64,000 nt of DNA. It comes from Rhytidiadelphus loreus (taxonomy: Eukaryota; Streptophyta; Bryopsida; Hypnales; Hylocomiaceae). The stretch is from NCBI GenBank assembly GCA_947034895.1, contig OX344761.1, positions 78,863,839-78,927,838 on the forward strand. Reading direction: 5' to 3'. A program made the position numbers and the translations under genes. Of this stretch, positions 8,588 to 62,900 are shown piece by piece (the first letter of the stretch is position 1; each line of letters starts with the position of its first letter). A model generated the notes under the pieces. It did no database searches. It saw only the letters and a list, made by a program, of their open reading frames with translations, and had not been told where the DNA came from.

Positions 8588-8639
8588 TTCTGAATTGAAC
8601 TTAATTACGTAATCCCGCCCAGCGTTCGGGAATTTTTTT

Positions 8640-8665
8640 GAGTTCTACCACTGAGCTATTTTCCC
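8640..8665 (-). other. tRNA-like 5' fragment with A box
   Basis: On the minus strand the sequence begins GGGAAAATAGCTCAGTGG and continues TAGAAC, a standard tRNA acceptor/D-arm start with a perfect A box (TAGCTCAGTGG). No matching anticodon stem or 3' acceptor strand follows; only a weak GTTCAATTC appears ~65 nt on. It is best read as a tRNA or SINE-head relic, about 55 bp upstream of the DJ-1 ATG. Confidence 0.35.
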
Positions 8666-22280: not shown

Positions 22281-24692
22281 TTAATTATTTACCTCAACCA
22301 GCTTCTCATCGTCCATCATCAATGTGGCAATGCGCTGCTCAGAACGATACGTCAGCATCTTCTCAATGTAATCTGATTGCACCCCTTCACTGGCATCTTC
22401 AATCGGTGGTCTACTCCATTGCATGCCCAGAATCTTAGACCGTAAATTTATCGTCAGAAGGTCTTGTTTGTACTTTTCGAGCTTGATGCAGATGGACGTA
22501 AAATCGGGTCTTTCCTTCGGGTCAGTAGCCCAGCACATTTCCAGAAGCGGAAGCAACTCATAATTGGGGCACTTCTTTGGAAGCTCCGGCCTTAGATTGC
22601 ATTCCACAATCTTCTTGAGCAGCTTGGCTGGATGCTCAGCTTCCACCAGAAAAGGCTCCTTCAAGGACAGAATGGCTGCGCAAGTCAGAGCAAAGCTGAA
22701 AACATCCGCCTTCGACCACTTCACCCTCTGATAGCCTCCTTCTGGAGACTTGGGATTGATCTCTGGAGCTCGGTAGATCAAGGTGCCACACCCCTTGTGC
22801 GATATAGGATTGGACTTGGAGACTTGGATTTTGGTCTTGGACAAATCGAAGTCCACCAACTTCACACACGTCACACACTCCCCGTTTGGGGAAACCACCT
22901 TGGAAACCACCACATTGCCCGGTTTCACATCACGATGCACAACCCCGAGGTCATGCAAGTAGCACATCCCACGCGCAATTTGAAGAATGATGTCCAGACC
23001 TTCTTCACTGGAGAAGTACATTCCCTTTGCTTTATGCAGATTGATCAAGTCAAGCAAGCTCATCTCCATCAGCTCCATGCCGATGAAGCATTGGGGCTTT
23101 TGTAAGTCCGTGCTGCTGAAACCCGAACTGGAGGGCTTCCTCGGCTTGTGAGTCGACATTGCCAATTGTGAGCCTGGCTGCCTAATCGGTTGTGAGTCAT
23201 TGCAGAAGTGCTGCACAAAAGTGGACACCGCTTCAATGCAGAAGCTTGACGGTCTCTGATGGCCGCTGAAACCCTGCAGCCTCTCTTGTAAGTCATTGCC
23301 ACAGCAGAAGAATTTGATGATATTCGGGTGGTTTAGGGCTGCGAGAAGCTCCGCTTCCTTCCTGAAACTGACATTCGCAGCGTCGATGTCAAGGAAAGTC
23401 TTCTTGGCGCAAGGGATGCCGAGCCATTTGGTGGCATCCACACAGATGCCACTGGAACTCGATAAAATCTTTCGGTTCACGTCCCACATTCGTTTCGTTT
23501 CAGTTTCAGTCGCCTGCAATAAAATGGGATCAGATGTGCCAAGGTCGTTTGGGATGAGGTGATCAGCGTCAGAATTGTTCCCTTTCAGCCGATCCATGAG
23601 CTGTAAGTATTTGGTAAAGCGTCCCAGCAGGTACCTTGACATCATGTGATCATCTGAGGAGACGGGATTCTTCACCAACCAATCCTCCAGTCTTTTCCGC
23701 AGGGTTTGTTGATCTTCAAGAACCTGAACGTGAGTTGGATCTGTTAAAATGGCGAAATCTCAAGAGATTGGCAAAATCTGGATATAATCTCAAATCTGCA
23801 CTGGTTAGTTTTCAGGGTTTAAGGTTTGGGCCCTACCTCATGTGCCTGTGCTGGCAAGAAGGTTCCAATTTGGCGAAGGTCTTGCACTTCGCCTGCCTTT
23901 TTCACCAAATTGACCCTCTGTCCCCACTGGGCTTGCTCGTAAATGGCATCGTAGCAGAAGCCTACCTAGTGGAACGATTCCATGAAACTGGCAATTTTCA
24001 GTTGAAACTACATTTGAAAGTTTTGTACAATTGACCAAAATGCATGTAAATCTCTGTGTCCTAGTCATCCAAGGCATATTAAACCGCTTGAGATGCATCC
24101 CATTAGAAATTACAATTCTCAAATTCAATTGCATTGACCTGACCTCCAGCAAAATCTCCCGAAAACTCTCTTCATTTTGAATCTGAAACACGGAGGCTCT
24201 CTGCCAATTGGCTGCGGAGCAATCCTCCACCAGCAACCACGCCTTCTCCAAGATGACGCAAAACTCCTCCAGCGCATTTTCGAAGAGAGAGTCGCGATGA
24301 TCGAATTCGAATTGGATGACGAGTTCCTGAACATTCGTGCTGGTTTTCACGAGCTTGAAAGAGAGATCCCGGCACTGATTCTCGGCGAGGAGGGTTCCAT
24401 GACCTGCTTTGTTCACGTGATCAGCAATGCGCTTCGCATATTTGAAGCTGCGGGACAGGGGATTGCGTTCTTCCTCATTGACAGAGCCGAGTCCATTGCC
24501 ATCCAAGAGGCGAAACCAAGCGGGGGATTCTTCATACTCCAGGCCTAGTCCAATGCAATCCAAAAATCGACACCACATGGACTGGCCATCTGGGTCTGTG
24601 GGTCGAAGATGACAGTCTTCGATTGAGTCTCGGGGCCAAAAATGCCAGACATCTGATTGCCGGGAACGGAGAAGGGTGGTTTTAAACAACAT
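22281..24692 (-). CDS. Serine/threonine protein kinase with atypical DFD motif, 2 exons
   Basis: Exon 1 is 24692-24144 (183 codons) and exon 2 is 23723-22281 (480 codons plus stop), joined in phase at GAG|GTCAGG...TTCAG|GTT; 663 residues in all. Residues 1-183 are an acidic N-terminal domain I do not recognise. The kinase domain lies ~260-600: Lys in PCAKKTF, alpha-C Glu in FRKEAELL, HRDVKPGN, LVDFDLSK, RAPE, and KADVFSFA. The glycine-rich loop is not recognisable (SSSSGICVDATKW in its place) and the DFG glycine is Asp. The catalytic Lys, HRD Asp and metal Asp remain, so activity is possible. A ~60-residue Ser/Gln-rich insert separates beta-3/alpha-C from the hinge (FIGMELME). The C-tail is charged. 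It resembles lineage-expanded moss tyrosine-kinase-like proteins; the function is unknown. Confidence 0.8.
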
Positions 24693-24750: not shown

Positions 24751-27744
24751 TTCGTGGTGGCAGAATCTGCGACAGCAACGAATGTACTTAAGAACAGACC
24801 AGCGCAGCAATATTACATGGAACTCTATATCCCTCAGGGTGGAATTCGAGCATGTCTTAAGCACTCGTGTTAGACTGCTGTGAGTTATCGACACAAAAGT
24901 CCATTGCAAGGCACTATTGAAATGACGATTGTATATACAACCAGAAGGTCAGAATAAACTGGGTTTATGCTCTCATTTTACCTACATAGACAACCTTGTC
25001 AATATCAGAAAGATTAGGCTGTGAATACAACTTGCGACTGTGAATATCAGAAAGATTAGGATGGCAAAGTATGTGTGCATATCAGTACTAAATAATGAAA
25101 CTAGACCCCCCAAATGGACTAGATAGCATTCAAGATTTCAAGAGCGGAGTGGCTCTCAAGGACGTTATCGAACATAACGCTAAGTTGTAATCTTGAATGG
25201 CAAGGTACTTTTGGGGTTTATCAGATGCATGGCTCACATTGAACACAGCATGATGCGTTAATTCTAATCCTCCCGTCAATCTACAATTACTACCAAGAAA
25301 TCTGATTGTAGATTGACGGGTGCTCAACCAAAGAAAACTTGTCGCATCTGCATTCACTCTTCAACTTGGTGTAAATCCAAGATACAAATCCGAGATGTAA
25401 TGAAATCAAAGAGCTACACAGGCTTCTACGCCAGACACTTGACTTATTCAATTCCAAGCAACGAAATACGACAAAATTTTTAAATCATGGGACCGAGAAC
25501 ACTCTCGTCCGAAAACACCCGTCAATCTACAAGTACTTCCAAGAAACAGAAAAAAGCACGATCAAATCTGGATGTGCTAAACCTCATGCACCTGGATCGC
25601 GCAGCTACAGTACTGTCGGTAAGTTCAGCTTGCATGTAACTATATGTGAAGTATCGTTTTCAAGCTCTTCATTCTCCCAATGCAAGTTTGATCACACACA
25701 ACGCACCTGATCATGGAAAATACTCCACGGTGCTCTGAAAAGAAGCTACCAATGAACTGCTAAACCTCGAGATCGTCACATAACGGATTACTGGAGAACT
25801 ACAGCGCAGGATGACAAACATAATCTGAGTCTACACAAAAATCTGATGATTTGGTTAGTGACTTACAGTCAACCCAAAGCTGTCTACCAAGCAAGCCATT
25901 GATTCACACAATCTAAGTAACTCAGAATTATATAGGAAGTACTCGAACTGGGCAAGCTAGCTAGCTAGCAGCAACCTAAGACGGCACCAGAGCATGGAAA
26001 ATGAGGCAATTTATATACAAAAGCGAATGCAATTCAACTTAAGTATCAGTGAAGATTGGTATTTTCTTGGTTTAATTCTAGTTCAAGATTTTCATTAATA
26101 TATAATTAAGCGCCCACATCCAACAGAGAATGTTTAATTGAGTTGTAAATAAGTAACGGTTGAGTGAAACTGGCAAAATGCTGTCACTTGCGTCTATATG
26201 AGTCACAGGAGTCTATATCTGTCCTAGTTATCCAAGGAAAAACGTCTGTGTGTACGTGTCTCATTTTCTTCAAATTTTTTTTCTTTTGAAACCTACTGTA
26301 TTAAGGATATAAGTGTGTCTCATTCTTGGCAATTAAACTGGGGGCTCAAAATATTTTAATTGAAATTGCCTACAATATTGCAAACGAGATTGAGCTGTGA
26401 CAGCAGTTGGTAGGAATAAACGGCGTACCCATGCTTCAAAATTCTGCTTTATTGTTTTTATTGTTTTTTGCTAGTTTATGAAGACAAGTGGAAATTAATT
26501 ATTCCACTTGCAAATGGCGGTTCAGTCAATCCTGCTAGTAAGTCAACCGCTTTAGATGGTCCTTGCATCTAAAACGTGGGCAATGTTGGCCATCACAAGA
26601 TTTATTTATTTTAAATTGGTTTAAACTAAAAAAGTGAAGCTTTTCAAATTAAAAATAAAATTATATGTCATTTTAGTTTTATATATATTGAAAAAATTGA
26701 TATACTACCGGTAATATATCCGTTGTAATTTCTATGATTTGAGGTGCAAAAAAATTGTAGCTTGGAAATGCAAAAGTGGGACCAAAATTTCAATTTGGGG
26801 AGAAACAAGTCAATGTCACCCAGGTATATGCAATCATGCCTTTTTTGTTGTTCCAAAAAATAGAAATCAATATTCAAATGCAATCTAGAATTGATACTAA
26901 AAAATGGACCAAATGAAGGACAATATGTTAACTATCACTTTTAAGATAACTTTATTGTACGAACCTTGCCATTGACTTTTCTCATAATTTTTACAACAAT
27001 ATTGTAGATTGTGTTGATTAGAGAGGCCTATTGTATACATCTATTGTATCTATAAATTGAAGAGGCCTATTTTAGCATTCACTACATACGAAGTTTTGAT
27101 ACCTCTATAAGAAAAATAAATTTTCAAGTTTCTTTTTGCCAATTATAAATATTTATTCTATTAGTGAGGGTATGAATTGGTATCACCTGCAAAATTACTA
27201 TCACTGATTTTTTTTATTAGATTGATGGAAATAGTAAAAATATACTAATTAATTCAACATGTGATAATTTGAGGTAGTGTAACCTTGATAAATTAGTGTC
27301 TCACACAAGTAAGAAATGTCATTGTAGTGAATAGAACATTAGAAATGGAATCAATCTATTGTAATGTGTCTTGGGGAGATATTTATGACTTATAGATAAT
27401 TTAATATGTTGATATGATAGTTATCAATTACTATGCAATACATTGTTAGTTTCAAGGCTCCTCTCTTTCCATGTTAGTTTATAGTTTCAAAATATACGAA
27501 TACATAAATTAATAGAGACAATGGCAATAAATGAAAAATAAAATGTTTTGTTACTAGAATAAAATGGTGTTTGAATTAGAACACTTGGTTGATGCTACTA
27601 AAGGAATGATTTAGACATGAATTCATAGTTGTATTGATCTAGTTGTGTTTTGAATTGATTTGGTAAATTGAATTTGATTTGGACAATATTTTCTCCTAGA
27701 ATATGTTTTCAAGAAGTTGCAGTATCCCTTGAGAACTAAACTCG
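24751..27744. other. Intergenic, increasingly AT-rich, no gene recognised
   Basis: Apart from the inverted repeat at 25272-25320 and its third copy at 25518, no structure was identified. Composition shifts to strongly AT-rich after about 26040. Confidence 0.4.
25272..25320. repeat. Perfect 16-bp inverted repeat with 17-nt loop
   Basis: CCCGTCAATCTACAAT (25272-25287) and its exact reverse complement (25305-25320) flank a 17-nt loop. A third copy of the left arm plus part of the loop (CCCGTCAATCTACAAG, then TACTTCCAAGAAA) is at 25518-25546. The hairpin could be transcribed or could be a foldback relic. Confidence 0.6.
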
Positions 27745-30132
27745 GGGGATGCACTTAGTTGTACTACAACAAACCACATGCGAACAAGTGGTTTCTAATA
27801 AACTATAATTTCAATCTAAAATTTTGACCATTGTTTAATAATGACTATAAGTTTCTATTGCCAAAATTTCAACCGAACTAAAATATGAAATGATTTTCAA
27901 AAGAAGTTGAAATTTAACTAAAATGGCATGTTTTTCAACTTAAATAATTTTAGAGAACACATTTAGATGACCATTGAATCAATATTCAACTCAAAATGAG
28001 CTTTCAATAGAGAGTTATTTTTAAGATTTTTTTTTCATTTTTTAGATAATTTTTTCTTGTGTAATATAGGGGTGTGAAAAAATATTTTCCAATTCTATAG
28101 TGTATCTTTTTACTTCAAAAATTTATAACTAATTATTATTAACAAATAAAATATCAATAATTCAAATTATAAACTTTCAAAGTAGGAAAATCTATTCATA
28201 TTTATTTTTATTTTTTTAAATTTAAAATTCAAAAAGTATGTAGGAGGTCCAAAGTTTTGTTCGCACGTGGTTTCTAATGGATACTCTAAGTGAACTCCTT
28301 GAGGAACTGAAAGTGGTGACTATGAGCATATAATTTTGATTAATGTAGAATTTGTCTAGATTTAGAATTTTGTACAAATTGGATGGATGTTATAAATCTA
28401 TATAACATTAGATGGTATAAGAATAGCCACAACGTGGGCTAATACATCATAATATTCAATTGCATATTGATAGCATATGCAACATTTTTTATATGATCAT
28501 AAAGTTGGCAACTTAGCATTTAGCTATTAGAATTGACCTTCAAATCTTGTACTTAGTATAATTATGAGTTATTACTAGAAGCATGTATAAACATTGAGTC
28601 TAAACTTCATATAGGTTCCATTTTCTAACTTTGAAGTCATTTAAGATCAATATGTAAACCTCCTTGCAATGTATCATTGGAAAGCTTTAGATGTCTTACT
28701 TCACATTTAGGTTTGATTCACTGAATTTAAAAAAAAAATGAGATCTCTATTTTGCTATAAACATTATGAGATCATTGGGTAACTGTTAGGCCATATGCCT
28801 TGTTGTAAAAAAAATCTAATACAAAGTGCACCATTCATTTGGATGTGCACCAGAATCTATACTACTCTTAATTTTTCAAAGGTTTGCTCAGACGAATGTC
28901 ACAAATTTGGGTTGTTTGTAGAATTCTACCAATTTAACTATAAAAGTGAAAGATTTTTAGAATATATTAATTATAGGGATTCAACGGGAATACATGCATG
29001 TACAAATTCTGCATCATTTACTGACGGCTGCTCAATGCATATGACTATCACTACCCCCATTGATATACTATGTGTCTAGAATTGGCAGTAACTGCCATAT
29101 AATATACGTATATATAGATTCAGTACCTTTGGCTCCAGTAGTGGAGCTATAGGACTAAAACAATATAAAAAAATTAAGAATTAAACACATCAACACCTTT
29201 ACCCTAGAGTTCTATCTACAAGCTATATATCTCTTGATCGTCACCAATCTTCGCGGAACTGAAGTGGATTACAAAACTTCTTTTCCAAATAGCTGCAGTT
29301 AGTTAATGAATTGCGATTCCAGTGGACCTCCCCTTCTTGTTAGAATCAGAATTCAGAGCTGTGAATAGAAGCGTCAAACTCTCATTCATTGCGTAGATTC
29401 ATGAGGAACAATCCTCGCCTTTGAGACTAATTTTTGAGCTTTTGAGAAGTTTGCGTCTGCAATTCCTAAACCTTTACTGCTTGATTTGTAGGAATTTACA
29501 ACTTGCTACATTTGAAGGAAGACAATCAATGCATATAGAGCACTAAAGAGATCAATATACGTGACGCTGGGCTTTGGTAGATACCTAGCTCAAAAAACTT
29601 GAAATCTGAAATCAGTGGTATTGTACTTTTTTGGATGAGTGATTACCAACACTTCGTTTATTTTTCTAGAATACAGTTTGGATGGTATTGTTTTAGCGCC
29701 TTGATCTATGTTTTAGCGACTCATCACGGTCCGTCAATCACGAGTAATGCCACCAATCACGAAAATGAGCGCTTTACTGTAGGTAAGTAGTATGTGCTAA
29801 AAAATTCGAATTTGATCTTGGGTAAGTAGATCTGTATTCGATTTAATGTCGTCTCTTCTATTGCAAGGGGAAAACAATTTCATTGCGATAGAATTAGGGT
29901 GACCTTCACAAGAAGTTTGAAGTCTGCCAGTCTAGAGACAGCTAGGGTTGAATTGGATCGATTTAGGTTTTGGATTCTCCTACAGTTTGCCACTTTCAAG
30001 CAAAGTTTGGAAATCAAGTCAAGTTTCATCTACAAAAATCCGTTTGAGGTTTGGGCACTCCACCTAAAAGTTATGGACAAATTTCAGAGAAGGTGTTTGA
30101 AAATGTCAAAAAAATGTCCGTCCACTGCCAAA

Positions 30133-33760: not shown

Positions 33761-35200
33761 TCTAATCATTTCATACTTTATTTGAGTTGGAAATTTCGGC
33801 AATAGAAACCTATAGTCATTATTAAACAATGCTCAAAATTTTAAGTTGAAATTATAGTTGATTAGAAATCACTTGTTTGCACGTGGATTGTTATAGTAGA
33901 ACTAAGTGCACCCACTGAGCTTGATTCATAGAGAGCTGCCTAAAATCACTATGTTTCCTAAAACCACAAATTAGGGCTTTAGGGGTTAAATTGTACAAAA
34001 GTAAATACTGTAGACTTTGTATAAAACACACTAATCCCAAAGGTGAGATTGTTCAAGGAAGAAAACTAAACCATTCAAAACTTTTATTCTGGAAGAATTG
34101 TAAAAACTTCATTCACAAATGAATCCTACAAGAAAATTTTCAAGAAGATGCTTATATTGTCTGAAAAACAAAATTGTCCATATCTTTCACATCTTTTATC
34201 CAAATGAAATGAATCAAAACTTCCCATGTAGATAAAAATAATTATAATCTATGAGAAAAAAAAATTCAAATTTTTGTTTGCTACCCAATCTCCCCTGCTT
34301 AGTGCTTATTTTTTCATAACTTTTGTTCCCGGTCACAAATTGAAAAAAACATAATATTCCCACGAAGATAATTGGTGATGGAGTCAAAAGCAAAGAGGAG
34401 CTGAGGTGAACCGTGTGGACATGACGATCCATGCAAGAAGCCTTTTCTCGCCCTCCTGTCAAGACGAGAGACCACACGAAAGCTTAGTGATGTGTTGCTG
34501 ACGAAAAGCATGCCGAAAGTGCGAACAAAACCCTAATTTGGTCAACTCAAATGCTTGCTACTCGGTCTCTAACACGAACCCAAGCTATAAACGGACTCCT
34601 CAATCAGCATTTGCTTAACCTGATCAATGAATATGCATTCATGCTCTTCTAAATATGCAAACATTTGATATATTCAATAACATTAGACTGTTTTAGATAG
34701 CATCATAAAGAAATTCTCTGCCATGCTTCACGGGAAGGTCTCCCTATGATGACAAATGATCATACAGAGACCTCCCTATGTAAGCTTATTACGGGCTGCA
34801 CTCTCTAGGATCAATATGACCACAGGGCGAGCTCTCATGAACCATGACAAAGATTCTCTTAAAGATGCTGTCTAAAAGTTCTTGAAACAGTCTAATTGTA
34901 ATGAAAACCCTGTTATTGCTACATCATATTCTCGTCACACAACAACAATGTATGTTGAAGTCTCTACACAGCAAATGTAGGTGTCCTTAACCTCCTGATG
35001 CAAGCTTAAGATCAAATGGAAAGTCAATGACCCAACCTGTTCTTGAAAGTAGGTGAAGAAGTCATTCCAAGATTTATGCACCTTCACCACCACATATATG
35101 CTCGCATTTGCCTTGAGAAGGATTAACTAAAAGCACATGTATGCATGCTCTTCTAGAAGCTACACAAGCATCTAAATGCATGAGATTTTTGCCGTTGTGA

Positions 35201-35203
35201 CAT
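35201..35203 (+). other. Target-site duplication CAT, left
   Basis: CAT directly precedes the CACTA left end and is repeated at 48737-48739 directly after the right end. Three bases is the normal CACTA duplication. Confidence 0.85.
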
Positions 35204-36131
<928 letters not shown>

Positions 36132-39100
36132 CTAATATCCTTCCTGTGCTAATAAATTCTCTTCCTCCGTCAATTCGATGGCCCTGATTAGATTAACCAT
36201 CTGTGCCGGAACTGGTAACCTATGGGGAGCTCTTAGTCCGTTGCTCTCTATGTTGGTGCTGATGAATGCATCCGACGTGTCCACGACTTCACGGTGTGCT
36301 CTGGCTTCTTTGCATAAGACTACTTTCCAGCCGGGTCGTTCCGGAACATCTGAAAAGAATACTTGCGTCGCTTGGCTTGGAAAAATGAAGGGATCTTGCA
36401 TGCAAGGCAGTTTATGCCGACAGTTCACCACAAGGAAGCCGGACTCGTCTCTAGTGTATGTGTGATTCCCTCGATTGTCCTGGGTTTTCACCCACTCACA
36501 GCGCAAAAGAATAATGCGCGTACTCAGTGCACCATAATCTAGCTCTAGAATGTCCTTCAGGACCCCCACGTAGTTCACAGATGAATCCTCAATTTGGGAT
36601 GATGGTTCCTGAAAAACAGAAGCTACACCACTATTGTAGCTCACAAAATGCGATGTACTTTCATCTTCTACTCTGAAGTGCTTACCAAACGCAGTGACGC
36701 GTGTGTACCGAGTGGCTCTCTGTGCAGGCTTCTTGCTTAGAAGAAATCGGTCCATGTCTATCTGGTTCCGCAAATCTAAGTCGGCATCTTGCATCGTGCG
36801 TTGAATCCACTCTGACAAAGTGGCGGTTTCTGGATTTGTGATGGATTCTGCCCTCCAAGACCTACAAAAGAAGAGTCACAATGACAGTATGAGATCCAAA
36901 CTTGAAGACATATACAGATCATAATGCCGTCCCATTTGGTTGGCGAACCCCACATTCATGAGGGGGTTCAAGGTTGTTCTCTGACTCTCTCCTCATTGTA
37001 GATAGTCACCACCAAGTCATTCCTAAGTCACGAAAAGAGAGCTTGCAACTTCCAAATGACTTCAAAACATCTAATGAACAACTCTGGCACTAGCATGTGC
37101 ATGGAATCCACAAAGAGTACAACTCTATTCACAGAGCAACAGTGGATTCAGGTGGGCATCGCATACACTAATTGTGCAAAGCACTTACGTCACCAAGTCT
37201 TGCATAGCAGTTGAATTGGATAGCACATACTGGTGGGCTATGTCTCTCAGCTCCGGGCTCATGATATATGGCCAGCCCGCTCCTTGTAAAACCTCCTCCG
37301 CATCTCCATACTCTTCATCTTCATCCCATATACGCCGTTGAGTCTCCTCAAATCTCTGGAGGTATTCAGTAATGAATCCAAGGCATTCATCTTTCAAGTA
37401 GCCCTCTGCCATGCACGCCTCCGGGCGGGCCAAATTGCGGACATGGTTCTTCAACACCTTCATGTAACGTTCCACTAGATACATCCACCTCGCACTAACT
37501 GGTCCACACAAGTCCAACTCTTTTGCAAGATGGTAGGGAAGATGTGTCATTATGTCAAAAAATGATGGTGGGAATTCTATCTCCAACAACGCCATACTTT
37601 CTGCCACATCTGCTTCTAGTGATTGAAATTCCGCGAGATTGTACACCTTCGTGCACAAGCATCTGAATACCCTGCACATTCTCATGATAGCCATGCGAGG
37701 ACCAGGTTGCATCAAGCCGCGAAGCGCAAGTGGCATTACCTATTGCATTAAGACATGGTAATCGTGGGACTTCAATCCTCCAAAGTTCTTCTTCCGGATG
37801 CACTTCCCTAGGTCAGAAGAATAGCCAGAAGGTGTCTTCAAGGACTCTATGCACTTAGCAAATTTTTCAAACTCCTCTTCGGACAACACATACGAAGCAC
37901 GCGGTTTCACCATCTTCCCTGCCTTTCGAGGGTGTGGGGTGAGCCACAAGTGCTTCCTAACATTGCGCCTTTGCATGTCTCTCCTGACTTTGACTGTGTC
38001 TTTCTTCCCTGTTATAGTTTTTAGGAAGTTCTTTGCCAGATTCAATTCGCAATGCATGACGTCCAGCATGTACCGAATGAGGAGATCCTGGCAGTTCTCA
38101 CATCGCACGCACATCTCATGGTCAAACACTAGTGACTATGTCATATACTAGTCATACGTTAGTCATTAATCATGACTTCAACTGGACTAATACTATAAAA
38201 TGACTTCCTCATCACTCACAAGTGGCATCATAGTCACCTATTAGTCACAGGCAAGTCATTTTTCATGGCCGTGCTGCCGACCAGTGATATTGACCTTCCA
38301 ATACAGCAAGCGGAAAAGGATGCTCAGTCTTTTCAAGCCATATATTTTGGATGGTCCCCTGCAGCACCGTCTCTATTTCCTGCTGCTTTCCACGCCTCGC
38401 ACTCCAAGGCATGCTGAATTTGTTCCTCTACTGTCACTGTGCGTGGTTTGGGGCGGGTTTCAATTGATCCGTTGAAATGGTCCTTCATTTCTGCTGATCT
38501 GTAGGGATGATTTTCAGGGAGCCATCGCCGAGTACCACTATAAATTTGCTTACCAAGCTCTGTTGAATGCTCAGCACCCAAATCCACGCCACACCACGGA
38601 CATGCTGCATACCCTTGATGAGAGAAGCCTCCTACTGTGCCATACCCGGGAAAGTCGTGGATAGTCCATAGCAACATGGCCCTCAATTGGAAAGACCTTG
38701 ATCCTGCATCTTTTGATACATCATATGTTGGAACCCCGGCCCACAATTCCAGCAATTCATCCACGAGAGGCTCTAAATATACGTCAAAGACTTCACTTGT
38801 GACGGACTCTCTCCCTGGAATCAGAAGAGCCAACATAATGAAGAACTTCTTCGTGCTCAACCACAGTGGGAGGTTGTAATTCAACAACACAACGGGCCAT
38901 GTTGACCATGCTGACCGGTTTTGTTTGAAAGGATTCACTCCATCTGCTACCAAGGCAAAGTGAGTGTTCTGTGGATCACTTGGAAAGGAAGGATCCACGT
39001 TCTCGTCAAAATGTTGCCACGCTTTGGAATCGCAAGGGTGTCTGACTAAGCCATCCCCTCCTTCTTTGTTGCTTCGATTGTTTACATGCCACACCATCAA

Positions 39101-40057
39101 CTTGGAAATTGCTGGACTCATGAACATTCGCTGGAGTCGTGGGATAATCGGAAAGTGACGGAGGACCTTCACTGGAAACCGACGGCGATCTGGATCTCGG
39201 TATCTACGACCACCACATTTAGGGCAACAAATGGCATCTGCATTGGATCCACGAAAAAGTACACACCCGCGCTCGCATGCATAGATAGTGTTGTACGTCA
39301 AACCCAACTTGCCAGTAAGTGTCTTCGGTGCATGGTGGGTTCGAGGCAACGTATTGTTCTCCGGCAAGAGATGGGAATGCAAAATGCTGAAGAGTTCGTT
39401 CGCGCACTGATTGCTAACACCGTGCACGGTGCACAAGTTCATCAGCAAAACTGTGGCCGCAAGCTTGCTGGACCGAGCTCCAGCATACAAATGCTCCAGC
39501 GACTCCTCCAACGCCCTCCCATCAAAATTGGGATCAACATCGCCCTTATTCGGGCCCATGTCGGGAGCCACCTGGTCGTCACGACATTCTTCACCCTCTG
39601 CAGCATAACCACCGTCCACTTCCATGAACTCTGCATGGATAGAGTCTGCTGTGGCAAAAGCGTCCATAACTTCCTCCTGAACTCTCTCTGCTGAACATGT
39701 TTGAACTTCTTGTGGATGTAGTGTTTGGTCGACCATCCCACGAGTATTAATTGTAGCATCCAATTCCTCCGGCTCCACTACAACTGGTCCCCAAAACTGT
39801 TGGTCCCATTCCTCGTCTGAGGAGTCTCGTGCACCTGGGCCTCTCCAAATCCTGGACTGTGGATCTCGGCCGTGGCGGATGAGGTGCTGCCGTACGTTTC
39901 GTATGAAAAGTCTCTTACGACCTCGACAGTTGGTGCATGGGCAATGCAACTTGTTGACATTATACTCCCTGGCCCTCTGCAATTCTCTAAGCCAAAGACG
40001 GTCATCTCGTAGTTGCTGCCTGCGAGTGTCTGATAGGGGTAGTCTGGTGGGTATCAT
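36132..40057 (-). pseudogene. CACTA transposase (TNP2/TNPD type), 3 exons, two lesions
   Basis: Cuts and joins CACTA ends. Exon 1 40057-38295, exon 2 38087-37189, exon 3 36861-36132; about 1130 codons. N-terminus: transposase-associated zinc-binding type (CPCTNCRGRKR...HLIRHG). Mid-exon 1: the TNP2 core (HFALVADGVNPF, TWPVVLLNYNLP, LLIPGRES, GYAACPWCG). Exon 2: LDVMHCELN, SHDYHVLMQ, then DUF4218 (FFDIMTHLPYHLAKEL...RWMYLVERYMK). Exon 3: DUF4216-like (YVGVLKDILELDY, CEWVKT). Lesion 1: near 38335 the frame must shift by one base (a missing base) to continue into LKRLSILFRLLYWK before the exon-1 donor. Lesion 2: TAG at 37740-37742 between VLMQ and VMPLALRG, where relatives read on. Everything else is open, so the damage looks recent. 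Splicing or readthrough around the TAG cannot be excluded. Confidence 0.88.
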
Positions 40058-41565
40058 GTCGTGTGTGATCCCGGAAGCTGAGCCACGTTAGCCACCGCTG
40101 CTAATGACCCACTGTCACGGACAATGATTTGGCTGAATGTACTTGTGTACAGTGGGTAATGACTGATAAATGGCTTCTGTAACTGGAGACTAACTAGAAA
40201 ATGACTTACTCAACTGCTGAATAACTGCAAAATGAGAAAATGTGACTTGTAAGTGACTAGCACATGTTAGCAAAATGATCACGATCATGAGCAACGTTAG
40301 ATCCAACGACATGCATATGAAAACTCAAAAGGAATTCCTTTGATTTATTTTATAAACTTGGTGAATCTTGAAAATGTAAGGGTTCCAAGTAAAAAATGAT
40401 GACGAACCACGATGGAAACATCTCATAAAGGCTACTGCATGCCCAGGCTTTTAAATGAAATACTTCAGTGTACAGTAGAAGGCGACGTTCAAATGCGACA
40501 TAAATCACATTTTTTTTTCTAAGTGACATGGTAAGTACACAAGAAAGAATTGAACGGATTTGCCCGGACTTTAGTATTATCCACTGGTACTTAATTACAC
40601 TTGGCGGGAAAATGTCATACGTAAGTCATATGTAAGTCAGAAATGACAACTTCATCTTAAATATGACTACCAAATAACTAATTCGCAAGTTCTTGGTGAC
40701 TCGAAAGTGCACAAGAAGTCACCCTGAAGTCATTCTTGTAGCCTACATCATTTCTAAACGTAGAAATGCTCACGTCGAATGTTTCTAGGATTCCATTGCC
40801 CACCCACTCCAAAAAAGAAAAGCACCCAAAAACTCTTCCACCAGTACATTTTTGTAAATGAACTGAGATTGTAGCTTACCTCTCCATGAAACTCTTAGCA
40901 CGAAACTTCTCCTTGGGTGTTTACAATCTGTAAGAAACTCCTCTGCATGTAGTGGTACTTGCTCTGCAAAATGCATCCGAAGTGAATTAGGGTGGCGACA
41001 TCTTCTGAATCGTCAATGTTCTTCCACATCGCATGCATCTCATGAGAGATCTACCTCAAGCTAAAACGTGGTCCATAAATGGTCCCGTTTTTTATTTCAC
41101 GTCTTCGATTGGCCAAGTATGTAATTCAGTGGAAATAGTTGCCCAACTAGGAGCAGCAACTGCAGCCTTCTTTTCCCACGACCCTAAACCACTGAATGAC
41201 TGAGTGCAGTGATCCTGCAAAGTTGAACTTCGAGTAAAAAATAACTACTAATTGCTAGGTTCAAAACTTAATTAGGAGCCGCCAAAATGCGCCTACCTCA
41301 TCATGTGGACGCTCTCCTGTGGCTGCCTAACAGTCCCGTCCGTGACCTGGACAACTCATTTCCAGGGTCTTAGCTTCAATGCTGAGGCGCTAGGCTTTGT
41401 TTGCCTATCTTGGACGCCGATTGTGAATCCTCTCAAATTTGCAAACGCTCGAGGTGCGCGCCGGGAAGCCCATGTCCACAGCAGTCAGATGTGCTCCGTC
41501 CCTAGAAGCGGTTCCACACGACCAACGTTCAGGAAGCGAGCCAAGGAAGTGTGCACAAGACAATC
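40058..41565. promoter_or_regulatory. Divergent promoter region of the CACTA element
   Basis: About 1.5 kb between the two element genes, which start in opposite directions. It contains further TGACT/AGTCA motifs (for example AAATGACTTACT, GTAAGTGACTAG, AATATGACTACC, GAAGTCATTC), as at the element ends. No core promoter was pinpointed. Confidence 0.45.
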
Positions 41566-44500
41566 ATGGATGACCTATCAAGTAGAGATTTCCTGATGGA
41601 GGAAGCTGAACCGAAGAAATCAGAGTACGAGCTCCTACGTGACAAGAACGTGGCTGAGGTGCAGAAGTTGTTTGCTCCAGTTGTGGAGGCAAGAAAAGAG
41701 TTGTAAGTTTCAAGAGCACTTGCGTCTATGCTCATGAGCACCTGTCGTGCCTTCCCAAGTGCACAGCATGGATTAATTTTGATCGTGGAGGAGGCAAAGG
41801 GGTACTAAAGGGTCTAGACTGCAGAGGTTCAAGAGCTTTCTACCGTCCTCAGGTTGTGGCAGAGCGTCAGGAGCACTACTTGCAAAGACAGAATTACCAT
41901 TATCTTTTGAGTTTAGGATTGCACAGTCTTCGAAGCAAGCAGGCGACGCCTCTCTAGGGTTTTGGGTAACGAACACAGTGGCTGAGGGCATTCAAAGTCC
42001 CTTCAGTTGTTCTGAAGTCATTTTTGAGTGAATCGGAAGTTGCTTTACATGCCTCGTGACTCCTACGCAACTTGTCTGTAGTCATAAAGAAGTCACGGAG
42101 AAGTCGCGGACTAGTCGCATGGGTTTTAGGGTAATCGTGATGCCACCATAAATACCTTGGCGGCCATGTGGTTGCACTCCTTGCACGTTGCCTCAGAAGT
42201 GGACCCCAGGGGTTTGGGTGCCATATCCTATTGTTTCTCTTGCTTCCCACCATTGCGCCATTGTCTCTGCTAGTTTTGTTGATTTTGTGACGTGGTAGGC
42301 ATGTTCAATCACGCTCCCATTTTTTAAGGTTTAGGGCTTTCCATTGTTGACGGCGCAGGGATGACGACGTAGCGAAGAAGAATCCTCCTGAATCTTGCGC
42401 ACCGGTGAAGGGCCTTGAAAGTGGTCCACGAAGGAGTGGAAGGCTGCGTGGCCTTGAAGGACGGGTAGGCAAGAGGACGAGGAGAGAAAATCGTGTCACC
42501 GACTCCGATCCAAACTTCAATCCGATGAGCAGTGCACGGGACTCTTCATCGGATGCCACGAAGTCCGATGGCGAGGCCATCGCCACAGGTATGATGCATC
42601 TTGCAATTGCTTGTACCCATGTAGAGTGGCAATCCGACAAGGAGGCTGAAGCCACAGGTAATCGCTGGATCACACTTCTTTACTCTTTGGTTGGGCTTAG
42701 GGTTTTGCGCTGTACATTTTGAATTGCAATGTTTGTTCTAGTCTTTACTCTTTAAGGCAATTGAGATTTCCATCTCAATCATTCATGGTTGATTTCAAAA
42801 TTACTCCTCGCCAATTCAGAGTGCATCGGCATATTTTCCTAAAACCACTGATTTAGACTGATGAATGACTTGTCTGAAGCATTGTGTGTGGGCGATGCTC
42901 CTATGTAGAATTTCGCCAGGATGCCTTCGACTCGTCCGATGACGACTTGGCACGGGACGAGCGGGAGCCCCTCATTGACAAAAGGAACAAGAGAAGAAAA
43001 CAGGTTGTGGAAGAGGACCTGTACCGCGACGACAACGACTCCCCTGTAGACCTCCGTCTGAAGAGAAGAAAGCAGCCGGTAGTGGACACATTGCCACAGA
43101 AGGCTGTGCCACTTCTGAATCCCACCTCCGATCCAAATTTCTACGGCCCGTCAAACTGCCTTTGGGTCCTGGGGCACTACATAGCAAACCAGGCTCCCGC
43201 ACAAGGTCATTGGGCTATAGGTCAGCCTCCACCATTCCAAAGTGCATGGACAGGCGCGCCCTTAGGTTTGCCAAGGCCATGTGCACCTGTTGCATCACAA
43301 GACAGTGATGACCGCTTCCTAAGGCGCAAGAGGAGAACCAGTTATGACATGGCACGGACGCAACGGGCTACTGTAGGAGCGAAGCCAAACCAGATGATGG
43401 TACTACCAGGTGGAGAGGTCGATTGTACCTGTGAAGGCAAAAATGCCTGGGACGAAGCACTGCGTGACCTGGTTCCCAAGTGCTTGGACATAAGCATTGT
43501 GGAGTGGTCCAAGCACGAGCCTCACAAGTTGAAGAAACTTCGAGCTGCCTTGGACTCAGAGTTTGAATACTTGGGTTCTCCCCTAAGTATGACTGGATTC
43601 CGATTGGCTGTCACCCGTTTTCTGAAATCAGAAAGATCCCGCTTGAAATGCAGGTACTTGAAAGGCATTGACAGTCCACCTCTTCACGTGGACAAACCAG
43701 AGTGGGATCGATTGAAGCAGTACTGGAACACGGACGCACAGAAGGTGAAGGCACGGAAGATGTCCATAGCGCGGTCTAACGTGAAGAATGCCACGTTTGT
43801 AGGAAGGAGAGGGAAGGCTGGGAAAGAAGCCTTGCTGGTAAGTCTGTATTCATTTAAGGTAAGTCTATATTCAGCTAATGTATCCAATAACTGCTACCGT
43901 CATATTTGGTGTGAGGATGTGTGTATGTATGAACATGCCAAAATTTTAACCCATGCCCCCGATGAATTCATTCTTATGGCTACCTTATTAGAGAGAGGGC
44001 ATGGAAAATCGCCCAGACGTCATGCATGGAGGCGAGGGCAGTTTCCCAAGTGCACAGCAAGGAACTAGGAGCCATGTAATTTACAATTTACCTTTCTCTA
44101 TTTCTTCTCCTTGCACTATCGTTTGTTCATCTTCCTTCAACATCAGCCTAAGTGAGTGAGGTACTCTCTCCACTTGTTCCAAAGTTAGGTCTACTTGACC
44201 AATGCGTGATTGTAGGCGAGCTCCCATTGTAAAGCGTTGAGGAAGAAGATTGTATTCCATATTGCAGTGTGTTCCTCGGTACCACTGTATTGGCTATCGG
44301 TTTGAACTTGGGCGTTTTTGAGATGGTGTCCACAGTTGCCTTCATGTCAATGTTTGGTCCTCACGGAGCTTGTGCGAGCGTAAGGAAGGAAGTAATTCAT
44401 ATTGGATAGAGAGTCACGAGAGTGATGAGACTTGAAGGCAAAGTCTGGTTGTCGTCATGTGACTGAGGAAGCGATGTAGTTGTTGAACTCCCTTTTTTGA

Positions 44501-47500
44501 AGTCGCACTGCAGTGACATTGTAGTCGCGCCGAAGTCGGTTTTCAGTCACGCTGTCAAGTCTCAGTCATTCATGTGGTCTGCGAGAGTTGAAGTCAAACT
44601 GTGTGACTTTTTGGTAACTCGTCCATGACTTCCGCCGTTGTCTTTGGTGCGTGTGAATAGATCGCGGAGGCAGGGGAGTCGGCTCGTTGGGAAGCCATGG
44701 AAACTTGGAAGAATGAGGTGGATGTGAAGGTTGGGCAGTTCCTTGCCAACTCAGTAGCTCAAAATGCAGCAATTGATGAATTGCGCTCCATGTTCCAGAG
44801 CTTCATGGGCTCCCGTGAACGTCTACAAGATGGCAGCCCCTCCTTTACGCAATCTGCGTTGGAGAACCAAGGGTCCCGTCCTCGGCATCCTTCCGTGACA
44901 GAAAAGAAAGGGCCCGGCGGTGGAGCAAGACAAAAGCACCACTCCAGGGTTATAGCAAGTCGAGCAGACATTACCCTGTCGGATTCTGGGTCAGATCTAA
45001 CTGCCAAACCGGAAACACACATGCGTGTTGCGCCCAGGGCACCGAAGTCCAAGGTGGCCTTGCAGCCTGTAATTGAGATGACACGGGAGTCTGAAGTCGA
45101 GTTACTTGCCCAACCCCGCATCGAGGGTGCGTTGGGGACCTTGGAGAAGGCTCAAGTGCTGCAGGATGACCTAGTAATTGCAGAAACTCCCACGACCAAT
45201 GAAGGCACAATGGCGTTGAAAGGAACGGCGGGAGTGGTTGAAGAGCGAAACAAGAGTGCAGACCCCATGCCAAACGAAGACACCAAGGCTGATGAAGTTG
45301 GTGTCTCACCAGAATGCGTCCCGCCCACGCCCGATAGCGGTGGTCCTTCTTGTCCTGGCGACGATGGTGAGGAGTTGGAGTGCGGAGGGGAACCCGACCC
45401 TGTGGTGAAGAAGAGCCCTGTGAATACAGACGAGGTGGACTCAGCAGCCGACGCTGGCAAGGCAGGACAAGACGACCCTGTGCTGAAGAAGAGCCCCATG
45501 AATACAGATGAGGTGGACTCAGCAGCCGGCGCTGGCAAGGTAGGACGATACGACCCTGTGGTGAAGAAGAGCCCCGGGAATACAAACGACGTGGACTCAG
45601 TATGTCGACGTTGGCAAGGCAGGATGAGAAGGTGCAGTTGCACCGTCGCAGTCGCCGCGGAATTCCAAGAGAACCCCCACTTCACCGGCGAAGGTATTTT
45701 CCCCTCCCGGCGTTCTTCAACGTACGCCGAATGAGGTGAGACCTTCCGGTGCTTCTTGGCCTACAATTCGTTTTAGGGGTGACAGGGAGTGTAAGTTAGT
45801 TATTTTCAATGTGCACGGAACCTTATTAGACTGCAGCAAGCTGTGTGAGAAAAATCCGAACCCTGCGATCTGTAGTAGCACAAAGACCGGTCAGAGGAGA
45901 GTGGTTTTCCGTCCATGGGTGAAATCCTTCCTTCAACGATGCTTTGCATCCTTTTCAGTCGGTTTCTGGGGAAGTGGCAGTGCATTACACATGGATGACG
46001 TGTTGCCAACGCTCCTTGGGGGATTCAAGAGTATCAATGTTGTCCCATTATTTGCATGGTCTGCCAAAGACTCGGAAGCTGCAGACGTTGGAAATGGTTG
46101 CATGACTGGGCAGGGTAAACAGTTGGAATTAGTGTATGCAACTTGGCCTCGTTTTTGTGCGGCAAACACATTGATTGTAGATAGTAAGCCAAGTAGAGTC
46201 GAGTGCAACCCTGACGCTAATGTCATCATCACTACCCCTTTCTATGTGAAGTGGATTTCCAAATTGCCAGATGATAAGGAGTACCTGAAACGGTATCTGT
46301 GGCCGTTGTTGGAGGCTTTTAATTCATGCCCGGACGTGGCTGCTTTCCGATTTAAATTCCCCGAATTAGTCAACGAATCCATGTTACAAATGATACAAAG
46401 ACGCCGAGCCGGACATGCATATGAGTTTCTGGACATTGTGGAAGGTGAGGGGACTCACAAACCACACGGTTGCACCTATGACGGCGTCCCCTCATCTTCC
46501 TTTGATCTGCATTTCTAATTAGCTTGCGCATGCATGTGTAGGTAAAGGGACAGAAGCGGGAGGTGAAGACCAAGCCGGCAGCTGCGGTCCCGAAAAAGAA
46601 TTCCGGACAATCAACGAAGAAGGTATAGTCACCAGAAATTGTAATGTGCATTTCCTTCATGTCCTGGCGAAGTCATTTTCAAGTTCCGAGAAGTTGTTTT
46701 CTAGTCATTCCTAAGTCACCGAATCCTGAAAAAGGAAATTCATGTTGCCTTCCGTATCGTTGTAGTGACGTACGTGTCATACTTCAGTCGTTTGGAAGTT
46801 AGGTTCTAGTGATTGTACGCCCCTTCAACCTGCCAGGCAAAAGTCGTGGTCATCTTCGACCCTTGAATATTCGCTCTATACCATCCGAAGTAGAATCATC
46901 TTACGAGACTATAGGATTGAAATCCTCTTGAACTGGGCTTGTTTTTCCTTTGTATGCCTTCAGGCAATGGCCATAATCCCGCGACGTTGACGGTTATTCG
47001 TTGAGTGTCCTTCACTATTTCGTGTTGGATTTGTGTGCATTATTGGGTGTGCCTTTCCCAGACACAGACTTAGGTAGCTACGCAATGCCTTAGTCGAATA
47101 CAGTAAGAGCACACCTTAGCACAAGTCGTGCTCCACCCTTACCCTAAACATGCTGTTCAATTCCCGTGTGCGGGCATGTTATACCTTTGGGGTCGAAGTT
47201 GCGTGGAAGTAAAGTTTGAGTTACGACAGACATCCAAGTCATTCAATAGTGGAATGTGTGTTATGTGTCAGTCACGTGGAAGTCACGGAGAAGTAGGTAA
47301 GTAGAGGAATGTGTGTGCAGTAACCCTTGTCCGGTTTCTAACCCCACCCTTATATTATCTAACCTAAACCCTTCTCTACAGTATCGGCTTGGAGACGAGG
47401 TTTTCCTCATAAACCCACGTGCAACAAGGCAGAAAGCAGCGGTGGGCAAGATTAGCGGTATCCCAGGGAAGCACAAGTTCCATTTCATGGACATTCCTGA

Positions 47501-47648
47501 GACATGGTTCAAAGTAGACATCAAGGAGGTTTTCCACTCCGAGGTGCCACTGATGTATCCCAACGACGCGGCTGACCAGGAGAAGATGGAAGATGTGAAG
47601 GGGACCTCCACAATATGGGACCAGAAATACTTGAAGCTTACACTTTAA
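41566..47648 (+). CDS. CACTA accessory protein (TNPA-like) containing a degenerate FCP1/HAD phosphatase domain
   Basis: Proposed exons: 41566-41702, 42359-42588, 42625-42657, 42909-43837, 43992-44075, 44661-45599, 45694-46444, 46542-46622, 47382-47648; roughly 1,120 residues. Phases agree except at the exon 7/8 junction. Order: a YELLRDKNVAEV motif; basic RSGRLRG...GKRTRREN; a Transposase_24 (Ptta/En/Spm)-like domain (LRAALDSEF...WDRLKQYWNTDAQKVKARKM); a helix/coiled coil (exon 6 start); 26-residue repeats; an FCP1/NIF-type HAD domain (exon 7); a basic linker; and a C-terminus resembling TNP1/EN/SPM Transposase_23. In the HAD domain LVIFNVHGTLLD replaces LxxDxDxTLL, so both catalytic Asp are Asn and His; VVFRPWVKSFL, FSVGFWGSGS and NTLIVDSKP keep the fold signature. 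Probably binds element DNA; the HAD part presumably acts in protein contacts, if at all. Confidence 0.72.
45396..45629 (+). repeat. 78-bp (26-residue) tandem repeats in the CACTA accessory gene
   Basis: Units at 45396-45473 and 45474-45551 encode DPV(V/L)KKSPxNTDEVDSAA followed by a Gly/Ala/Lys tail. A third unit (45552-45629) begins the same way but changes at 45600: one extra base and a TGA appear relative to units 1 and 2. That stretch is either a broken unit or the start of a 94-nt intron (45600-45693, GTATGT...AAG) that restores frame exactly into exon 7. Confidence 0.75.
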
Positions 47649-47799
47649 CGTGGGCTTGGTCAATTAGATGGCATTGTTGGGACTCTTGAATGATGACTAT
47701 GCTATTGTAAATATTGAAGCTCAACTGCAGTGAAGGCTTCTCCTACCTCAGGAACCGCCTTTCGTTTTGCCATGTTTGAAATGTAAATGGTAGCCTATG

Positions 47800-48736
47800 A
47801 ATCCATTCTGATGTTGCCTCAGACATGTTAGACACTTAGACTGAATGACTGTCTTGTATGTTTCTTTGTGATTTCTAAGAGTGCGTCTTTGTATTGCCCT
47901 ACCTTCTTCCTTCTTCCTTGATATAGCTTGATGAATCCTCTATAGTAAAAAAATGTCCTCTGAACCGAAACCAACACGCAAGAAGGACCCATCTCCCTAA
48001 TGACTTCATGGCCACTCACCCCCGCCCAACTTTCACTTCGCTATTGTAGCACAACTCCCGTAAGACTTCGGTCCGACTTATGAATTACTTGTGAAGTGCA
48101 TCCCACATTGCTTCTTGATATCAGAATTAGAACGCATGGATAACTTCACACAGCCATCAATACCGTCACAAAAATGACTGTTCCACATCTACCAAATGAC
48201 TGGGCAGTCGTAGAAGATGACAGTCACCGTAAACCAAAACCCAACTCCATCATGACTCAAGAATGACTCCGTATTTTAGTACCTCGGGGTGTACTCGACT
48301 TGAATTGCGACTGAAGAACGACTGTAAAATTTCGTGACGTGGATGTCCATGTCAACATCAATGTGACTTTATTATGACTTGTAAATGACTCCGGAATTTG
48401 CTGACGTGGACGTCCACCTCAGCAGTCGTGGGACTGCATCACAACTACAAAATGACTACGAAATCGGTTGATATGGCCGTCCACGTCACGAGAATGTCAA
48501 TGCAGTTGGTCAGCTGCCCGACCCCTTAACAAAATTCCCATCAAATTTTCAAACCCTGTCATCCAATCTTCATCCAAGTCCACAGTAGATGGTGCTAATA
48601 CAAATGGCGCAGTCATTAGCCGTGACTGGTCCACAATGACTCTAGGACCCCAAGTTGTTTTCCAGTCATTTTTGTCCGAAATGACTATTTTGCAGTCATA
48701 TATCACAGTCATATATTACACTGTTTTTTTGTAGTG
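47800..48736. repeat. Right subterminal repeat region and terminal inverted repeat
   Basis: From ~47830 to the end TGACT/AGTCA motifs recur (CTGAATGACTG, AAATGACTGTTCC, AAATGACTGGGC, GAATGACTCC, AAATGACTCC, AAATGACTACG, CAGTCATTAG, CCAGTCATTTTTG, GCAGTCATATATCACAGTCAT), closing with CTGTTTTTTTGTAGTG, the exact inverse of the left terminus. Confidence 0.8.
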
Positions 48737-48739
48737 CAT

Positions 48740-59938: not shown

Positions 59939-62900
59939 ATGGCAGGTCAAGGGTTTTTTCAAGATATTGTGGATGGTGATACATACAAATACTACGCTGA
60001 TGGAGAGTGGAAGGTGTCTGTTTCTGGGAAGTCGGTGGGCATTATCAATCCCTCCACATTGAAGACGCAATATAAAGTGCAAGGTTTGAGCTTATTCCAT
60101 TAGAAGGAACTGGGGACATTTGGTCCTTGAGCGGAAGCATTCTGTCCTTAAGTCGTAGTTGACAATGATTCATGTGTAAATATGGCAAACACTTGTCAAG
60201 GTTCAGAGTTTTGGGTTGTGCTGTTTGTAGCCTGCAACCAGGATGAGGTGAACAAGGCAGTCGAAAGTGCTCACGCTGCTCAAAGAGTGTGGGCCAAGAC
60301 CCCCTTGTGGAAGCGAGCTGAAACCCTTCACAGATTTGCTGGCATCCTCAAGGACCAGAAAAATGCCATTGCTGAAGCTCTTGTGAAGGAGATTGCCAAG
60401 CCTCAGAAGGACTCTGTCACAGAGGTGGAAAAAATGGCCAATTTACACAGAAATCTTTGTTGAATTTTGGTTGAGACTTCGAAAATTTCCAGCTTAATAT
60501 GTTGCGCTTGCTCATTGATGAGATTTTTTGTCACTTATGTAGTTAAATTTGGCGATTGTAGGTCGTCAGATCTGGTGACCTAATCTCATATGCTGCAGAG
60601 GAGGGCATTCGAATCTTGGCTGAGGGTAAGTTCTTGGCGTCGGACAGCTTCCCAGGAAATGGCAGAAGTAAATTTTGCCTCGCATCAAAGGTGCACCACT
60701 TTCTTCACCTTGCGTCAAAGATTTTATTGTGAAATTTCCTTCAGTTTCATGGGACTGACTTTACTTTGAGCCCTACTCACTGAGGAGATTCAATGTAAAA
60801 ATTAATAACGAATTTGAGATACTTGAAAGGAGAGTATCATGTCTGTTAAACTTTCTATTATGGAAGTACTTCTTAGGTTACTCAACCACCATGTATATTC
60901 ATACATATATATTCAGACTACGGTACCCTAATAAAACCCTAATCCCCCTCAGACTTGCTCTGCATTTGGTGTAAATAGTACATACATTTTCCAGTGGTTA
61001 CTGTACTAAGAAGTTTCATGACTACCTGTAGATTCCACTTGGTGTGGTACTTTGCATTCCCCCATTCAACTACCCAGTCAACCTGGCAGTGTCCAAGATC
61101 GCTCCAGCTCTAATCACAGGCAATGCTGTCATTTTGAAGCCTCCAACCCAGGTATACTGCAGTCTGCTCACGATCACAAACTTAATACATATTTTAATTT
61201 TTTAGTTGATCCAAACCCCAAATTCTTACATACTCTATCCCATAAAACATGATGAGTTTGCATAAAATTTTGTCGAAACTACTTGATTTTGTTCAAGCAC
61301 AATCTATTGTTTTGCAATATTGTAATATATCAGGGTTGCAGTATTCACTGTGCTCGTTTCCAATTCCCCCACGTTCAATATAGTGTCAGATTCTTCTCCA
61401 TCAGACACCGTTCCTATCAAAATTGCTTGCAAAGTTTGGTATCTAGATTTTGTTGTGCTATCTATATTGGATGAGGCGTTGGGGCGGGGGGCGTCGATTG
61501 TCATCATGACGCCCTGTGGCTTGAACAAAGAACTACTCTAGAGTGAGATCATGGTACCATAAGTCAAAATATTACTCCGTACTTACAAGTCACCTTACAT
61601 TTCTCAATTGCAGGGTGCAGTGTCGGCCTTGCACATGGTGCATTGCCTTCACATGGCTGGGTTCCCAAAAGGTTTAGTTGCTGCAATCACAGGAAAGGGT
61701 TCGGAGATTGGAGATCTGCTCACCATGCACCCGGGAGTCAATTGCATAAGGTACAGAATTGGTAGTCGATTTTCTGTGCATCAGATTTTCATTCCGAAGC
61801 ATGATCATATTCGTTAAACTGGAAATGTGATCTCGAAGTGGAATCAAAGTGGTTTGAGACTCATCTGAAATCCAATAATTAAAACCTTCCTAGATTTTTC
61901 ATGCTCCGATGCTTCAGATGGGCAACTGAAAGTTCTAATTTTCAGCAACTGAATGCTAAATTTTGGCACACCGAAATTCACCAAAAGATTCGGTATGAGG
62001 TTAATTTAACCTAGTTTTATATGATGTTTGAATCAGTTTCACAGGTGGTGATACGGGTATTTCCATCTCAAGGAAAGCTGGGATGATCCCACTTCAGATG
62101 GAGCTTGGAGGCAAGGATTGCTGCATCGTCCTTGAAGATGCTGATCTTGAACTGGCTGCTAACAATGTCATCAAGGGCGGATTCTCCTTCAGGTTCGTGG
62201 CTTATTTTATACACAAGCCACATGAGTTTCTCTAGTTATACAATACATAACCTTCGAGAAATCGGAGGCTCAATAAGATTATTAGACACAATGCAAAATC
62301 GACTTGAACATCTAGATCTATATTTCTGGTTTACCCAAGGACTTACTTCGAGAAAAAGGGTTACGCGCTAATCCTCCAGACATGACCCTCTCTTTTAGGC
62401 TAGAGTAGGATCTTTAGATATCAGAGAACTGCATCTTTTTGAAAGTTGAAAGGAGGATAGTTGTTATAACAAATAGACTCTTCTCTCCTTATTCCAACCG
62501 CAATACGGTATATTTATGGTCACAATGAAAATAACAGGAGAGGGTTATGGATTATAGTCTTCTTCTTCTAATCAACCTGCGAGAGAGTGACAAAGTTGCC
62601 TCAAAACTTGGACTTGGCTGTATGGTTTCTAAGCCTTGAGCTTTTGTGGAATTTTGTATCGCAGTGGTCAAAGGTGCACGGCCATCAAGGTGATATGTGT
62701 CATGGAGTCAGTTGCAGAAGAGCTGGTGAAAAAGATTAATGAGAAGATGACGAAGCTCAAAGTTGGAATGCCTGAAGACAACTGCGCTATCACTCCCGTG
62801 GTTAGCGAGTCGTCAGCGAACTTCATTCAGGGTCTTGTGGAGGATGCGAAGGCCAAGAAGGCCAAGTTCCATCAAGTATGTTCCATCTTCAAAGTCCTTT

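Follow-up and report, generated by a model that had tools for sequence, protein, structure and literature searches.

A complete CACTA transposon was found in a 64,000-nucleotide stretch of the Rhytidiadelphus loreus genome (the window; contig OX344761.1, positions 78,863,839 to 78,927,838), and the gene beside its TNP2 transposase gene encodes a domain of the NIF/FCP1-type HAD phosphatase fold with a dead active site. The results support this domain as a fixed part of the element. The case is built on the membership of the element in the CACTA group, the predicted fold of the domain, the loss of its catalytic residues, its linkage to TNP2 genes across the genome and a ratio of nonsynonymous to synonymous substitution rates (dN/dS) below 1. 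We consider it probable that the domain is a pseudophosphatase of the second, TNPA-like protein of a whole CACTA family, kept under purifying selection and acting as a binding module, the TNPA-like role being taken from the position of the gene.

The CACTA element and its pseudophosphatase domain

The element, its transposase gene and the domain are located as follows.

35204..48736: complete CACTA (En/Spm) element, 13,533 bp, with inverted termini CACTACAAAAAAACAG at both ends and a CAT/CAT duplication
35201..35203: target site duplication CAT, left
48737..48739: target site duplication CAT, right
35204..35233, plus strand: left terminal inverted repeat, 30 nt, 87% complementary to the right end
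48707..48736, minus strand: right terminal inverted repeat
47737..48736: right subterminal region rich in ATGACT/AGTCAT, by motif count in 1 kb
38333..40087, minus strand: open reading frame (ORF) of the main TNP2 transposase exon (PF02992, 215.9 bits, E = 4.7e-64)
37740..38135, minus strand: ORF of a further TNP2 exon, which ends at TAG; the same frame stays open beyond
45628..46518, plus strand: open frame encoding the NIF-fold domain (PF03031, 41.7 bits)
45784..46443, plus strand: NIF-fold pseudophosphatase domain as modelled and compared

CACTA-starting termini, a 3-bp duplication, a TNP2-type transposase and repeated subterminal motifs, which define membership of the CACTA group, were all observed. 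The motif ATGACT/AGTCAT occurs 8 times in the left and 15 times in the right end kilobase, compared with a mean of 0.62 expected from base shuffles, and Rfam gave nothing above gathering scores anywhere in the window. The original prediction, made from the letters of the window, had placed the domain inside a CACTA transposon, and the matching ends, the 3-bp duplication and the TNP2 gene bear this out. Among five further close copies whose ends were fetched, four have both CACTA ends and their own matching 3-bp duplications (AAT, TAA, TTA and TCA); in the fifth, which is without linked TNP2, the right end only was detected.

The peptides from which an FCP1/NIF-type layout had been predicted were found in the claimed order in the plus-strand ORF 45628-46518. 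NIF (PF03031) was the single Pfam family at E ≤ 1 in this ORF (residues 56-237, E = 1.2e-10), with 41.7 bits against a curated cut-off of 21.8. The NIF fold was recovered in predicted structure models, which gave significant fold matches to NIF/HAD. A family profile was required, because the single window protein gave weak, unrelated matches only against PDB sequences (best E = 0.55).

The catalytic DxDxT motif reads N-V-H-G-T, as predicted, so that the nucleophile Asp is replaced by Asn and the second Asp by His, and the motif II Ser/Thr is replaced by Gly. Among the residues that characterize active FCP/SCP enzymes, DxDxT and the motif II Ser/Thr are absent, while the motif III Lys and the first Asp of motif IV are present. 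In SCP1, the first Asp of motif I is the nucleophile and the second assists, as stated in an excerpt of the SCP1 report (PMC7281111). The later DD pair, which had been read as V-D, had to be revised: alignment to UBLCP1 puts motif IV at D133-S134 of the domain, with the first Asp retained. The second position of motif IV is not diagnostic, because a host SCP-like exon of the same genome (L059, with LDLDET, FTAS and VDNN) has D-N there.

Conservation and linkage to the transposase

The domain found 24 homologues in one protein search and 170 in another, 120 of the latter being listed, and signature counts were made on 128 aligned rows from 127 proteins, with denominators that differ by position. 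Motif I has N in 120/124, H in 121/124 and the Thr of HGT in 118/124, and motif II has Gly in 117/126, with D in 7 and S in 2. The motif III Lys (112/116) and the first Asp of motif IV (102/106) are kept, and the second position of motif IV is H in 80 rows, N in 13, S in 10, Y in 2 and Q in 1, but never Asp. In a dereplicated alignment of 66 rows, with pairwise identities averaging 47% and no lower than 25%, the Lys, His, Asp, Asn and Gly positions rank 15, 23, 27, 31 and 40 among 219 columns. The altered positions are therefore among the better conserved columns, which marks a conserved signature and not random decay. The domains of six long homologues are 72, 68, 62, 55, 53 and 59% identical to that of the window. 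For the upstream linker, identity over the aligned part is 31, 31, 47 (73 columns), 33 and 39% (54 columns) in the first five of them, and the sixth gave no significant linker match. No relatives were confirmed when contigs of viral and prokaryote genomes and plasmids were scanned.

The genome that was searched has 407,041,205 bases in 489 contigs, including five large scaffolds. The 132 scored matches to the NIF domain comprise 12 at 96-100% identity and 8 at 86-89% (two of them partial), with the rest at 48-62%. We compared 41 copies, namely the window copy and 40 fetched ones, consisting of 12 young, six middle and 23 older copies. Asn, Lys and Asp are present in all 41, the His position has His in 37 and Gln in 4, and motif II has Gly in 35 and Ser in 3. 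The codons for Asn, Lys and Asp differ synonymously among the copies. The median dN/dS was 0.27 between the young and middle groups (72 pairs) and 0.17 where the 23 older copies were involved, whether on one side of a pair (205 usable of 276) or on both (192 usable of 253). The domain is thus carried by other copies of the element with dN/dS well below 1 between groups, which is consistent with purifying selection. Together with the profile and fold matches, this supported the original view of the dead domain as fixed in the element and not a chance insertion.

The TNP2 search gave 80 matches at 75 places in the genome. At 59 of these places a NIF exon lies nearby in divergent orientation, 4.4-14.1 kb away, and 55 are within 6.8 kb. 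No convergent pairs were found among the 75 places, and three pairs were on the same strand within 20 kb. By chance, a mean of 0.31 and a maximum of 3 linked places were obtained in 200 random placements on the five large scaffolds. Seen from the domain, 59 of the 132 NIF exons have a linked TNP2, among them 10 of the 12 closest. One linked pair, on the small contig C437, may have been duplicated in the assembly, as its scores equal those of a pair on C2. Outside this genome, contig sizes of 379697, 392240 and 27963 are shared, by eye, between the lists of NIF and TNP2 homologues, which suggests that both lists hit the same three contigs; the named ones among the 120 TNP2 relatives listed are two liverworts (38 and 40%).

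The TNPA-like gene, other NIF repeats and neighboring features

The NIF-bearing gene is on the plus strand, divergent from TNP2 on the minus strand, and its exon structure was assigned by eye.

41566..41702, plus strand: possible first exon, with ATG and a donor-like site, by eye
42878..44068, plus strand: ORF with a probable further exon (ORF only; no Pfam match at E ≤ 1)
44661..45734, plus strand: exon ORF with a helical, coiled-coil-like start (by eye), then an acidic linker; no Pfam match
45396..45629, plus strand: three 78-bp tandem repeats; the frame breaks within the third
46445..46541, plus strand: probable intron after the NIF exon, with GT/AG signals, by eye
47382..47648, plus strand: possible last exon, open to the stop; no Pfam match

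The ORF at 47382..47648 may resemble TNP1-type C-terminal domains. In-frame continuity of the domain with the upstream repeats had also been predicted, and this fails in the window copy and holds for the family. In the window copy the NIF ORF does not share the frame of the repeat ORF (44661-45734), and its own frame is closed upstream by a TGA (45625-45627). The sole possible bridge between the two frames is a candidate 52-nt GT-AG stretch (45600-45651), and a plant intron as short as 52 nt is unusual. By contrast, the junction from repeats to domain is in frame in 11/11 other close copies, where between 79 and 375 residues ahead of the domain are open, and two of these copies (L009 and L014) have a single open frame of 618 residues from the coiled-coil-like start through the NIF domain. 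Other copies and long homologues keep the same order open, from ORF 44661..45734 as far as the NIF domain. The TAG in the TNP2 ORF 37740..38135 looks like a nonsense change, unless an exon boundary lies there. Both genes appear damaged in the window copy, which is probably non-autonomous.

A genome search with PF03031 itself gave 1000 candidates, and all 150 that were scored were above the cut-off, while 14 control genomes gave none. Among the scored loci, L059 is the host SCP-like exon described above, and most of the others are repeats, to judge by open-frame lengths that recur. We took 33 loci for reading (29 from the PF03031 list and 4 added), of which four were truncated and L066 was not read. 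Motif I was visible at 28 loci and reads DLN in 28/28, with the first Asp kept and the second replaced by Asn. Three DLN types were distinguished, of about 266 aa (VLDLNGI), 221 aa (VLDLNGV) and 283 aa (FDLNGV). In an unrooted tree of 23 sequences, the CACTA family was apart from one host SCP-like sequence and the three NIF repeat types, with an ultrafast bootstrap of 100. Since the DLN types branch apart from the CACTA family, NIF domains have spread in several repeat types of this genome. Capture from a host gene, as originally proposed, is a possible origin of the CACTA-borne domain, and no donor gene was found.

The loci L060-L088, for example L062 (C4:1927499-1928068), form a large DLN-type repeat family with the motif II Ser/Thr and the Lys kept and mostly DD at motif IV. 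The upstream ORF of L060, L062 and L072 is glutamine-rich and, by eye, coiled-coil-like. At L089 (C4:1921000-1926100), in front of one copy of this kind, ORFs with INGQHSIEASKYMF and YSGYAGGKLTCAA stretches are ParB-like and methylase-like by eye, and no matching Pfam family was found for them. L090, L091 and L093 belong to the 221-aa type and L092 to the 283-aa type, all DLN and repeated; by eye, a TNP2 gene lies on the same strand as L090, about 6.3 kb away, and no linkage is claimed.

Elsewhere in the window, a long uninterrupted ORF with two DJ-1/PfpI stretches (7043-8644, minus strand), a protein kinase domain ORF (22281-23759, minus strand) and an aldehyde dehydrogenase exon-like ORF (60152-60463, plus strand) were observed. 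A pair of 138-nt inverted repeats (27733-27870 and 33790-33927; 87%, 5.9 kb apart) possibly marks another mobile element.

Possible roles of the domain

We propose, as the most likely reading, that the NIF-fold domain would be an added binding module of the TNPA-like helper, one that possibly reads phosphorylated peptides or contacts a host protein in another way, and that it may help the helper protein act in transposition or regulation. The predicted fold and the pocket signature (N-x-H-G-T, Lys and Asp) are kept while the residues needed for catalysis are lost, and purifying selection probably keeps the domain while the element multiplies. Asn in place of Asp at the nucleophile is the kind of change made in experiments that trap substrates, so that a phosphopeptide reader is plausible.

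Several observations weigh against this proposal. The loss of the motif II Ser/Thr and of the second Asp weakens the phosphopeptide-reader idea. Stops are present within the domain in 10 of the 41 copies, and dN/dS is higher within groups, with medians of 0.48 among the 12 young copies (66 pairs) and 0.72 among the six middle ones (15 pairs), while the dS of older pairs, 1.7-1.9, is near saturation. No NIF exon was found at 16 of the 75 TNP2 places, and 73 of the 132 NIF matches are without a scored TNP2, in searches where scoring was limited to 132 of 257 NIF and 75 of 787 TNP2 candidates. Most homologues outside the genome come from metagenome contigs. No Pfam match at E ≤ 1 was obtained for the three other plus-strand ORFs, so the TNPA-like identity rests on position. 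Low dN/dS between groups and higher values within young groups are as expected for elements that are under selection while active and relaxed after insertion.

A broader proposal, which we regard as tentative and rather unlikely, is that plant repeats have recurrently used NIF-type domains as a module for contact with the host. The D-to-N change here would give a non-hydrolysing phosphopeptide reader that ties the helper to a host partner in phosphorylated form, for example RNA polymerase II, which the original prediction had also suggested as a partner, and at least three other repeat types of the same genome would carry a separately acquired, half-altered (DxN) form. In SCP1, the pocket for the proline of the polymerase C-terminal domain (CTD) consists of Phe106, Val118, Leu155, Tyr158 and Arg178, according to an excerpt of the SCP1 report (PMC7281111). 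The position matched to Tyr158 is Tyr in at least 90% of 21 aligned rows. By eye, Leu155 would align with Ser, and Tyr158 with His in the window copy. This comparison, which is weak, does not favor SCP1-type CTD binding.

The domain could instead be a pure structural spacer or dimerisation element whose old pocket has no partner. The structural core columns are conserved equally or better, and the second position of motif IV is variable (H, N or S), as this explanation would allow, but new residues are fixed at the old catalytic positions, with synonymous variation in the codons for N, K and D, and we consider it unlikely. That the altered site still catalyses something, by other chemistry or another nucleophile, is quite improbable: although Lys, Asp, Asn and His at the old active-site positions are among the better conserved columns, the motif II Ser/Thr is lost in most copies and so are both Asp residues of motif I, the first of which is the nucleophile in SCP1 (PMC7281111, excerpt). 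A recent passive capture of a host phosphatase fragment, decaying inside one element, might account for the apparent damage to the window copy and has a parallel in the gene fragments of a soybean CACTA element (PMC1947982, excerpt), but it was rejected as very improbable, given Asn in 41/41 genome copies and in homologues down to 25% pairwise identity, the linkage at 59/75 TNP2 places and the dN/dS of 0.17-0.27 between groups.

As a conserved binding module in a CACTA helper, the domain can be compared with known systems. En/Spm TNPA binds subterminal repeats and is needed with TNPD for transposition, and CACTA helper proteins are known chiefly as DNA binders, as stated in an excerpt of PMC2613891. 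Like En/Spm TNPA and Tam1 TNP1, the protein studied here is the second CACTA protein beside a TNP2/TNPD transposase, in an element whose subterminal motifs are repeated and of the sort that these helpers bind (same excerpt). In contrast to them, it has a NIF-fold domain, its gene is divergent from TNP2, and the other ORFs gave no Pfam match to TNPA/TNP1. It differs from the small CTD phosphatases SCP1 and SCP2 in that both Asp residues of DxDxT and the motif II Ser/Thr are replaced. UBLCP1 is an enzyme with an intact site and a ubiquitin-like domain, unlike the transposon domain. Tim50 is a subunit of the mitochondrial presequence translocase, outside any transposon, and baculovirus 38K (Ac98) and the NIF phosphatases of giant viruses are virus proteins distant in sequence.

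No earlier description of a NIF domain in a CACTA element was found in the searches made of an open-licence library, judged by titles and the starts of abstracts. CACTA elements and NIF domains are each known, and their combination, with a NIF pseudophosphatase conserved and fixed in the helper gene of a CACTA element, was not seen in these searches. A conserved pseudophosphatase in scores of copies under selection points to a contact with a host protein that transposition or regulation may need, and the family offers a natural series of site changes for studying how a NIF enzyme is converted into a binder.
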